This document shows, in pieces, positions 40,088 to 42,584 of a stretch of 64,000 nucleotides of DNA. This stretch comes from Zymomonas mobilis (lineage in GTDB: Bacteria; Pseudomonadota; Alphaproteobacteria; Sphingomonadales; Sphingomonadaceae): NCBI RefSeq assembly GCF_006715975.1, contig NZ_VFOF01000001.1, positions 1,891,001-1,955,000 on the forward strand, written 5' to 3'. A program made the translations under genes and the position numbers. Within the stretch, counting starts at the first letter, position 1, and each line of letters opens with the position of its first letter. Under the pieces are notes generated by a model. It had not been told where the DNA came from and ran no database searches. It worked only from the letters and a program-made list of their open reading frames with translations.

Positions 40088-40361
40088 AATGGCAACTCCT
40101 GAATAAGTTAACGGTTATTGGAACCGGATAAACAGTAATGCGAATCAAAATATGAAAACAATGCTGTTTCATTGATGCATCAGGATGACTTTAATCCCGA
40201 TAATCTCAGGATCTTTTTATCATCCGTTATTAATTCTAACTTTTCGATGACTTTATTTAACAAAAAATATATTTTATTGTCGTTGGTTAAGAAGATTCTG
40301 TCCGGTGAATATTTTCTCACCCGGGATAATAAGACCGGACTGATCAGGAAAAGGAAATGCG

Positions 40362-40646
40362 ATGATTCGTTCCGAACTGATCCAGACATTAGCAAATGAT
40401 AATCCCGAACTCTCATCAGAAGAAATAGAACATATTATCGATGTTTTTTTTGACGGGATTACCCATCATCTGGCCAAAGGTGGTCGGGTAGAGATTAGAG
40501 GCTTCGGCGCTTTTTCCACCCGTTTTCGGGACGCTCGTATTGGCCGAAATCCAAGAACCGGCACGCAAGTTGAAGTGAAAGCCAAACGTGTCCCCTATTT
40601 TAAACCGGGAAAAGAGGTAAGAGAGCATCTTAATATTGAAATTTAG
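40362..40646 (+). CDS. ihfB: Integration host factor beta subunit (IhfB)
   Basis: DNA-bending nucleoid protein of the HU/IHF family; pairs with IhfA. The 94-residue product reads MIRSELIQTLA, a long helix pair, RGFGAFSTRFRDARIGRNPR with the DNA-minor-groove Pro in GRNPRTG, and VPYFKPGKEVREHL. The IhfB-type N-terminus and its position near rpsA separate it from HU. IHF bending is usually needed for NifA/sigma-54 promoters such as those further along in this window. Confidence 0.93.
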   Translation: MIRSELIQTLANDNPELSSEEIEHIIDVFFDGITHHLAKGGRVEIRGFGAFSTRFRDARIGRNPRTGTQVEVKAKRVPYFKPGKEVREHLNIEI

Positions 40647-40694
40647 CTTGCATTTTACCCCCAAGCACCGCTATGCGGATTCGGCATAATGTTG

Positions 40695-40995
40695 CGGGCG
40701 TGGCGGAATGGTAGACGCTACGGACTTAAAATTTTGAGTGCCCTTTTGGAAACGAAAGGTGCAGAACTGCTCAAATTCGGGGAAAGCTGTAAAATGCTAA
40801 TCCCGAGCCAAGCCTGAAATATTTCAGGAAGGTGTAGAGACTAGACGGGCAGCACCTAATCCCTTGTAAAAGGGTATGGTGAAGGGATAGTCCAGACCCC
40901 AAACACTGTTTTGGCAGTGGCGGTGAAAGCCGTGGTAGGTAAGAAAATCCGTTGGGCATTTGCCCGTGAGGGTTCGAGTCCCTCCGCCCGCACCA
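40695..40995 (+). tRNA. tRNA-Leu (anticodon UAA) interrupted by a group I intron
   Basis: The 5' exon (40695-40728) starts with acceptor GCGGGCG and ends in the anticodon loop after U34. The 3' exon (40944-40995) begins with AAAATCCGT, completes the anticodon stem ACGGA / TCCGT, has a class II variable arm (TGGGCATTTGCCCG), a GGGTTCGAGTCCC T-arm, acceptor CGCCCGC and encoded ACCA. The mature tRNA would be 86 nt with anticodon TAA. The split after U34 is the same site as in the well-known cyanobacterial and plastid tRNA-Leu(UAA) introns. Confidence 0.94.
40729..40943 (+). ncRNA. Group I self-splicing intron in tRNA-Leu(UAA)
   Basis: A 215-nt insertion with no open reading frame for a homing endonuclease. 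P1 pairs exon ACTT with intron GAGT, giving the expected U-G wobble at the 5' splice site; a P2-like hairpin CCTTT/AAAGG follows. The conserved core is readable: GTGTAGAGACTAGACGGGC (R element, 5' half of P7) and AAGGGATAGTCCAGACC (S element, 3' half). The last base is G (40943), the omega-G, directly before the AAAATCC exon. Structure and length match the small subgroup IC3 tRNA introns. Subgroup and self-splicing are inferred. Confidence 0.9.
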
Positions 40996-41150
40996 TAATG
41001 CTAGATTTGAATAAGACGGTTTTTAATTCCGGAATATTTGCACTATTTATGCAAATATTGTCGGGATTCGATGGTGTTTATCTATTTTATAACTAGGGTT
41101 CCCTTGACCCACCTCCCCTTTTTACGGCAAAAGGCCAAAAAGGGGACTGC

Positions 41151-42584
41151 ATGTTAAAAAAATATTTTGGCTCTCGTAAAAAATTTCATTCTCTTACTTC
41201 TAAACAGTCTCATCCCAACAAAGATAACCAAGCCCTTTCCCGTAATTTATCTTGGCCGCATCTGATTGCTTTAGGTGTTGGTGCCATTGTCGGAACCGGA
41301 ATTTATACATTGGTAGGTGTCGGCGCAGATCGCGCGGGACCTGCAGTGGTTATTGCCTTCATTATCGCTGGCCTTATCTGTGCGACGGCTGCCCTTGGTT
41401 ATGCTGAACTAGCCACATTGATACCAGAAGCCGGTGGTGCTTATACTTATGCTTATATGGCCATTGGTCGTCATATGGCATGGATTGTCGGCTGGAGTCT
41501 TATCCTTGAATATTCATTAGCCAGCTCGACGGTTGCAGTTGGTTGGTCCGCTTATCTTGTCGGATGGCTCCATTCCTTTGGAGTAAATTTACCGGCAGCC
41601 TTGTTAGCGGGCCCCCATGATGGCGGTATCATCAATTTACCCGCCGTTATCGTGGCGTTATCCATCGCTTTATTATTAACAGCCGGCGCAAAAGAAAGCG
41701 CCACCCTGACTTTGGGATTGGTTATTCTGAAATTGGCGGCATTGGTCTTATTCGTTATTCTTACCCTGCCCGCTTTTCATTTTACTTATTATCATCCCTT
41801 TATGCCTTATGGATTTATCAGCCATCTTTCACCTGATGGGAAAGTCCGAGGTGTTATGGCCGCCGCCGCTATCTTGTTTTTTGCCTTTTACGGTTTTGAT
41901 ACTGTTGCAACGGCAGCGGAAGAAACCAAAAATCCGAAACGCGATTTAACGATCGGCATTATTGGTTCGATGACTCTATCCGTGCTGATTTACATTGGTG
42001 TGGCAGCTTGTTTGTTAGGCGCAGCGCCTTTTACCAGCTTTGTTTCAAGCGGTGAGCCATTAGCGCTTATTCTAAGAAATCTGCATCATGAAACCGCGGC
42101 AAAGTGGATTGCTGCGGCCGCCCTTGTGGCTTTACCATCTGTGATTATGGCAATGATTTACGGTCAAAGCCGTGTATTTTTTGTGATGGCCAGAGATAAC
42201 TTGCTCCCGCCTTTTTTGGCGAAAGTCAACAAAAGCGGAACGCCTAGTCAGGTGACATTGTTCACGGGTGTTATTATCGCTTTGATTGCTGGTTTTTTCC
42301 GTTTGGATGAATTGGCTGAATTAGCCAATGCAGGCACCTTGCTGGCCTTTATTGCGGTCGGTCTTTCCCTGATTATTCTGCGCGTTCGGGAAAGCGAACG
42401 GGTACGGCGTTTTTCTTGCCCGTTTCCCTTTGTTGTAGGCAGCATTACCATTGTCGGCTGTCTGTATTTGTTTAGCAGCTTGCCTTTGCATACGACGGTT
42501 CGCTTCTTTTTATGGAATGCGATCGGTCTCGTTTTTTATGGCAGCTACAGCCTGTATAAACGCTGCAAACAGCGTTCAGCCTAA
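41151..42584 (+). CDS. APC-family amino acid permease (cationic amino acid transporter type)
   Basis: A 477-residue inner-membrane amino acid transporter with 12 or so predicted helices. Helix 1 contains the APC substrate/ion motif GVGAIVGTGIYTLVGV near residue 48, and helix 6 the FFAFYGFDTVATAAEE segment near 244, characteristic of the CAT/YfnA/GerAB-like cationic-type subgroup. Substrate is not certain. The ATG has AGGGG upstream. Stands alone downstream of the tRNA-Leu gene. Confidence 0.87.
   Translation: MLKKYFGSRKKFHSLTSKQSHPNKDNQALSRNLSWPHLIALGVGAIVGTGIYTLVGVGADRAGPAVVIAFIIAGLICATAALGYAELATLIPEAGGAYTYAYMAIGRHMAWIVGWSLILEYSLASSTVAVGWSAYLVGWLHSFGVNLPAALLAGPHDGGIINLPAVIVALSIALLLTAGAKESATLTLGLVILKLAALVLFVILTLPAFHFTYYHPFMPYGFISHLSPDGKVRGVMAAAAILFFAFYGFDTVATAAEETKNPKRDLTIGIIGSMTLSVLIYIGVAACLLGAAPFTSFVSSGEPLALILRNLHHETAAKWIAAAALVALPSVIMAMIYGQSRVFFVMARDNLLPPFLAKVNKSGTPSQVTLFTGVIIALIAGFFRLDELAELANAGTLLAFIAVGLSLIILRVRESERVRRFSCPFPFVVGSITIVGCLYLFSSLPLHTTVRFFLWNAIGLVFYGSYSLYKRCKQRSA

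Follow-up and report, generated by a model that had tools for sequence, protein, structure and literature searches.

A group I intron in the anticodon loop of the single tRNA-Leu(UAA) gene found in a Zymomonas genome and its patchy occurrence in proteobacteria

Why the gene for a leucine tRNA is interrupted inside its anticodon in an alphaproteobacterium, and whether the cell depends on removal of the insert, are the questions raised by a locus on contig 1 of a 2.1-Mb Zymomonas genome assembled in 7 contigs. The window, that is, the whole 64-kb stretch of DNA that was analyzed, covers positions 1891001-1955000 of this contig. A 5.5-kb piece of another contig has matches in 29 plasmid records, 24 of them from Zymomonas (97.6% over 632 bases in the Zymomonas matches listed), which points to Zymomonas mobilis or close kin as the host. 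We have little doubt that the answer is a group I ribozyme without a reading frame that splits tRNA-Leu(UAA) at an ancestral locus next to ihfB, would splice itself out and so serve the UUA codon, and belongs to a family repeatedly gained and lost at this one site in proteobacteria.

The whole gene lies on the forward strand at 40694-40995 and consists of a 34-nt 5' exon (40694-40727) ending in C32, U33, and U34, an intron of 216 nt (40728-40943) assigned by Rfam model RF00028 and covariation and ending in a terminal G at 40943, and a 52-nt 3' exon (40944-40995) that encodes CCA. The initial annotation had started the gene at 40695 and given the intron 215 nt; the sequence places the start at 40694 and gives 216 nt. 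Its identification of the gene and of the insertion point after U34 is borne out, as the exons join to an 86-nt tRNA with the acceptor strands GCGGGCG and CGCCCGC, the loop CUUAAAA, a UAA anticodon, a long variable arm, and the encoded CCA, and the intron lies between U34, the end of the 5' exon, and A35, the start of the 3' exon. The 5' exon boundary is the same as in the window in 120 of the 123 loci in which it was parsed for, a count in which the CTT end, the terminal G, and the AA start are the search criteria themselves. ARAGORN did not call the split gene at 40694-40995, an example of how tRNA finders can miss split genes, such that genomes may falsely seem to be without tRNA-Leu(UAA). 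A weak scan of 40200-41200, in which shuffled sequences average 1.8 promoter-like and 1.5 terminator-like matches, gave no match of either kind.

The insert scores 64.6 bits (E value of 4.3e-14) against the Rfam model Intron_gpI (RF00028), above the gathering score of 50, and the claim that it is a group I intron is upheld by this check. Two stretches that we take to be the R and S elements of the group I core, GUGUAGAGACUA and GGGAUAGUCC, are present in the intron, and the R and S motifs, the U-G pair at the 5' splice site, and the terminal G described at the outset can all be read in the sequence. The minimum-energy fold of the pre-tRNA is -120.2 kcal/mol (z = -5.95), a value equaled by 0 of 100 shuffles, and most of the nested helices are recovered in this fold. 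A search pattern that combines the tRNA-Leu exon with the intron core, and that was derived from this same tRNA-Leu intron family, had one match in the window and none in 100 shuffles.

Helices P1 to P9 were assigned in the window sequence, and their pairs were then tallied in 66 sequences aligned with MAFFT, including that of the window, hand-picked from 101 dereplicated loci. Standard pairs make up 94.5% of the 3,795 cells in the 66 rows, the structure having been drawn on one row of the alignment on which it was scored, and changes on both sides are seen at 38 of the 59 pairs. Cells changed on both sides number 494 against a shuffled mean of 140, and the covariation score of 0.365, compared with 0.120 after shuffling, beats all 500 shuffles and all six controls with a slid structure, the best of which pairs in only 43.2% of cells. 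Because a sequence pattern (for most rows, the end of the exon and the beginning of P4) was used to collect the rows, invariance at these positions is partly a matter of selection.

All helices lie on the forward strand. P1 (40724-40739) pairs the exon sequence ACUU (40724-40727) with the guide GAGU (40736-40739) and puts a U-G pair at the 5' splice site in 66 of 66 rows, the exon U being part of the search pattern. It is followed by P2 (40740-40762), a hairpin with a GAAA loop and both-side changes at 8 of 9 pairs, and by P3 (40767-40772 with 40847-40852), which is 100% paired with both-side changes at 4 of 6 pairs and whose letters differ between alpha- and gammaproteobacterial rows while the pairing is kept. 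Within 40776-40807, P4 (40776-40781 with 40802-40807) is paired in 99.7% of cells in the alignment and P5 (40785-40787 with 40796-40798), the weakest helix, in 72.2%, and P6, which together with P6a occupies 40808-40832, is paired in 100%. P7 (40839-40843 with 40888-40892), presumably the guanosine-binding helix, is 100% paired and has 4 of its 5 pairs invariant. P8 and P8b (40853-40881) are paired in 99.6% and 91.6% of cells, and the letters of P8b vary within the genus while its pairing stays. The region 40904-40932 holds P9a (40904-40908 with 40915-40919) and P9b (40921-40932), a CGGU-GAAA-GCCG hairpin that is 100% paired in the alignment with both-side changes at 4 of 4 pairs. The full group I core of P3, P4, P6, P7, and P8 is formed, including the P3/P7 pseudoknot.

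An intron of this structure would be expected, once transcribed, to fold into P1 to P9 and to bind an external guanosine in P7, which would attack at the P1 U-G pair, just after U34. The released end of the 5' exon would then attack after the terminal G of the intron, and ligation of the exons would give the 86-nt tRNA-Leu(UAA).

The cell seems to have no substitute for this product. The genome gives 46 uninterrupted tRNA matches, 45 of them named by ARAGORN and one that is truncated by a contig end and reads by eye as tRNA-Ala; the leucine anticodons that ARAGORN reports are CAA, UAG, GAG, and CAG, none being UAA. The halves of the joined exons match 100% at the locus, the next long match (78%) is tRNA-Leu(CAA), and elsewhere in the genome only short pieces of 17-18 bases match. 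A pattern for the intact gene has no match in the host genome (G000). The absence of a second leucine tRNA reading UAA, on which the initial annotation had made the need for splicing depend, thus agrees with the tRNA matches, the joined-exon search, and the intact-gene search alike; no second tRNA-Leu(UAA) was found in the 2.1-Mb assembly of 7 contigs, and the single-copy claim depends on its completeness (99.86%). In the 41 window open reading frames of at least 200 aa, UUA accounts for 322 of 16,444 codons and for 20% of leucine codons, and it occurs in 40 of the 41. Reading of UUA should need splicing, since no other leucine tRNA with a UAA anticodon was found, and because UUA is also frequent in these reading frames, splicing is probably essential to the host.

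The same observations bear on two other accounts of the insert. It could be a dead remnant in a pseudogene, with another tRNA reading UUA, and the failure of ARAGORN to call the gene fits this, but no other UAA anticodon was found in the genome, the exons are intact, P8b has kept its pairing within the genus despite changed letters, and UUA is common. We rejected this account on the lack of a second UAA tRNA in the genome and regard it as extremely improbable. The location in the anticodon loop would also suit removal by protein enzymes, as for archaeal and eukaryotic tRNA introns, without any self-splicing; such introns are hard to reconcile with a complete group I core that includes P7 and P3, a U-G splice site, a length of 216 nt, and a position at 34/35, and we give this route practically no credence.

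The intron is not confined to one genome. It is present in 4 of 4 genomes examined in the host genus, and its pattern is matched in 35 of 397 genomes and 12 of 96 genera of the family and in 7 of 385 genomes of the class, where the intact-gene pattern is matched in 166 of 385; both patterns are strict, with more than half of the 385 class genomes matching neither. The intron pattern overlooks real cases, as G014 has an intron (L041) without matching it. A scan of named genomes with the strict pattern gave at least 117 stretches; among the matches listed (117), 76 are from Alphaproteobacteria, 28 from Gammaproteobacteria, and 13 from other or unranked groups, many of the latter being metagenome bins that are possibly misbinned. 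With such numbers in named genomes, family, and class, the earlier view of the tRNA-Leu intron as a rarity in alphaproteobacteria finds no support. The same insertion site was parsed for 115 of the 117 matches listed, the two exceptions being L082, which runs off its record, and L111, which has an extra T before AAAA; L093 is without its 5' end, and L185, parsed at 835 nt without an HNH frame, is possibly misparsed. Both the intron and the intact-gene pattern were matched in G197, G176, and G334. An apparent second intact tRNA-Leu copy in G197 was rejected as a 5' fragment running into other sequence. Extra copies of the tRNA-Leu 5' exon are found near the intron-bearing genes at L089, L149, and L234, and they may be scars left by elements that integrated into it.

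The surroundings of the gene are conserved with and without the intron. A gene on the same strand (40362-40646), which we take to be ihfB from its likeness to integration host factor, lies 47 nt upstream of tRNA-Leu(UAA). In the family, ihfB is found at most 200 nt upstream in 28 of 34 distinct intron-bearing loci (window excluded; counted by hand after dropping three duplicate loci and leaving out two matches in G768), and 6 of the 34 have no ihfB match nearby. From the family genomes that the intron pattern did not match, we also hand-picked 24 as intron-less, knowing that four (G017, G043, G109, and G420) hold an intact gene somewhere. All 24 have ihfB, which is followed within about 210 nt by an intact tRNA-Leu(UAA) in 16, again counted by hand; no tRNA-Leu follows ihfB in the other 8, and an Rfam scan of two of these (L244 and L248) found no intron. 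In genus g2, the intact gene L253 (G754) agrees at every position, over 85 nt, with the joined exons of L203, L204, L206, and L208 and shows one or two differences when compared with L038, L207, and L205, and this identity of an intact gene with the joined exons of its congeners fixes the splice sites in the genus.

On a host tree of 55 loci, built on short proteins and with 21 of 55 rows having under half the columns, intron presence or absence changes 8 times, at least 5 of these by starred branches, although such counts cannot separate gain from loss. In a tree of 101 introns, most alphaproteobacterial rows stand apart from the gammaproteobacterial rows (100/89, starred). Two introns from the host family, L222 and L223, group with those of Rhodobacterales, Hyphomicrobiales, and Caulobacteraceae (99/99, starred) and share the exon type of that group, yet they stand behind ihfB; the simplest reading would be transfer of the intron with exons alongside. 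The nearest relative of the window intron outside the genus is L189 (G197), from another family and with unstarred support of 91/87, and there is no close relative from outside the genus among the 101 introns in the tree.

The window intron has no open reading frame and at 216 nt is too short for an endonuclease, and the endonuclease expected of a mobile (homing) intron was accordingly not found in it. Seven tRNA-Leu(UAA) introns of 684-706 nt (L077, L080, L098, L118, L142, L145, and L191), in contrast, have a frame of about 154 aa on the antisense strand, in the region corresponding to P6 and P6a of the window intron. Six of them are among the 115 parsed loci listed and come from five Gammaproteobacteria bins and one Muproteobacteria bin; the seventh, L191, comes from the class search and thus from the class of the host, and its genome, possibly a mixed bin, has a match to the intact-gene pattern too. 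L142 has in addition an open stretch of 113 codons on the sense strand. Of two frames searched against Pfam, both scored above the cut-off for HNH_3 and one also for HNH, and the one frame compared with PHROGs matched phrog_10822, an HNH endonuclease, with an E value of 4.7e-47. The intron pattern is also found in 30 viral contigs (L260-L289), 23 of which parse to the same site and seven of which do not; by eye, an HNH-like frame can be read on the antisense strand of L268 and one resembling LAGLIDADG on the sense strand of L271. The HNH frames and the phage contigs are a plausible vehicle for the spread of the intron. In the titles and abstract openings available to our literature search, in which subscription journals are thinly covered, neither a tRNA-Leu(UAA) intron in Zymomonas nor an HNH-bearing tRNA-Leu intron is named.

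Split tRNA-Leu(UAA) genes are also carried by plasmids. A copy of the Phyllobacterium/Rhodovulum type (92.8% and 89.1%) has a match in 1,280 of 72,556 plasmid records, the match covering at least 80% of the copy in 1,257, and this alphaproteobacterial-looking copy is matched in 635 of 5,426 complete E. coli genomes as well (624 over at least 80%). It scores 33 bits in Rfam, below the cut-off of 50. The nearest of the loci compared, L184 of Phyllobacterium phragmitis (92.8%), is similar over about 430 bases at the tRNA, and this similarity stops short of aac(3). In the two records examined, from enterobacterial and Acinetobacter plasmids, at most about 2.2 kb separates the copy (L290:5001-5298 and L291:4001-4300) from aac(3)-II, and the copy looks like a putative passenger of the aac(3)-II segment. 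No feature is annotated under it among the 6 E. coli and 12 plasmid matches listed, of which only the E. coli rows are informative, as the plasmid annotation tables do not include RNA genes.

That 1,257 plasmid records hold a split gene of another lineage over at least 80% of the gene, and that a split tRNA-Leu gene was parsed in 23 of the 30 pattern-bearing viral contigs, shows that such genes travel and could speak for acquisition of the whole tRNA-Leu locus together with its intron, for example, from a cyanobacterium or a plasmid. Whole-locus transfer is, however, disfavored because the order of ihfB and then tRNA-Leu(UAA) is common to 28 of 34 intron-bearing and 16 of 24 intron-less loci, with ihfB 47 nt upstream here, and we regard it as very unlikely; it is the intron that would appear to move. 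Of the two forms of lateral transfer offered by the initial annotation, the one of the whole locus is therefore the less probable. Strictly vertical descent of the intron from an old ancestor of the proteobacteria, with numerous losses and no repeated gain, would explain the orthologous site, the presence of the intron in all four Zymomonas-like genomes examined, and the separation of most alpha- from gammaproteobacterial introns. Against it are the at least five changes forced by starred branches in the family, in which gain and loss are indistinguishable, the placement of L222 and L223 with the introns and exon type of other orders, and the endonuclease frames in relatives, and we consider it unlikely, if worth keeping in mind. 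We favor an intron family that would have been gained and lost repeatedly at one site in proteobacteria, gain possibly occurring by homing or recombination. A bolder version, which we put forward tentatively and as a serious possibility, is that the intron is still mobile in proteobacteria and their phages: the antisense HNH endonuclease would drive homing into the anticodon loop, most copies, including that of the window, would have lost the endonuclease and be kept for want of another tRNA reading UUA, and phages and resistance plasmids would spread copies between orders, E. coli included.

The window intron is a solid case of a familiar kind of element; what surprises is the frequency of its family at the same site beyond cyanobacteria, together with the hints of its mobility. 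The cyanobacterial and plastid intron, of subgroup IC3, interrupts the same tRNA and, as we assume, at the same point after U34. The host here is an alphaproteobacterium, unlike the hosts of that intron. Other group I introns in proteobacterial tRNAs are those in tRNA-Ile(CAU) of Azoarcus and in tRNA-Arg(CCU) of Agrobacterium and other alphaproteobacteria, likewise small ribozymes in anticodon loops but in other tRNAs, and tRNA-Arg(CCU) is uninterrupted in the present genome (L017). The other alpha- and gammaproteobacterial tRNA-Leu(UAA) introns share the site of the window intron (115 of 117 among the matches listed) and, in the 66 aligned, its structure, and the seven relatives from alpha-, gamma-, and other proteobacteria differ by their antisense HNH frame. 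The view of the intron as a cyanobacterial specialty with a few proteobacterial oddities is weakened, because the same site is patchily occupied across alpha- and gammaproteobacteria and intron-less alleles of this locus exist in congeners. For a tRNA intron that looks essential, gain, loss, and dependence become directly testable, and a Zymomonas-like host, in which UUA decoding should rest on one ribozyme, is tractable. The likeness to the cyanobacterial and plastid intron is drawn from published descriptions; PMC4033280, which cites Reinhold-Hurek and Shub 1992 as well as Tanner and Cech 1996, gives the tRNA-Leu(UAA) intron one shared position in cyanobacteria and plastids and places most bacterial tRNA introns at 37/38. 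Small size and lack of a reading frame are common to the window intron and the cyanobacterial and plastid introns; in PMC1995217, a reading frame is recorded in 0 of 242 plastid trnL entries.

Other group I introns were also found. Within the order of the host, tRNA-Lys(UUU) and tRNA-Arg(UCU) hold such introns at L034:1501-1704 (G086) and L033:1501-1823 (G090), respectively, the anticodons being read by eye, and a weak match of 26 bits at L042:1501-1661 (G028) lies outside tRNA and possibly in a protein gene. The host genome itself has a second group I intron at G000:C1:501735-502116 (L002:1501-1882), which scores 50.1 bits and sits inside a prophage major capsid gene whose exons, by eye, keep one reading frame across the ISPT/ETPF junction. 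Among 50,697 phage records, 297 match the protein so joined, and the eight matches listed are annotated as major capsid protein. This capsid intron is present in 4 of 4 genomes of the genus (also L043, L044, and L045), the copy in G001 scoring 45.1 bits, below the Rfam cut-off.
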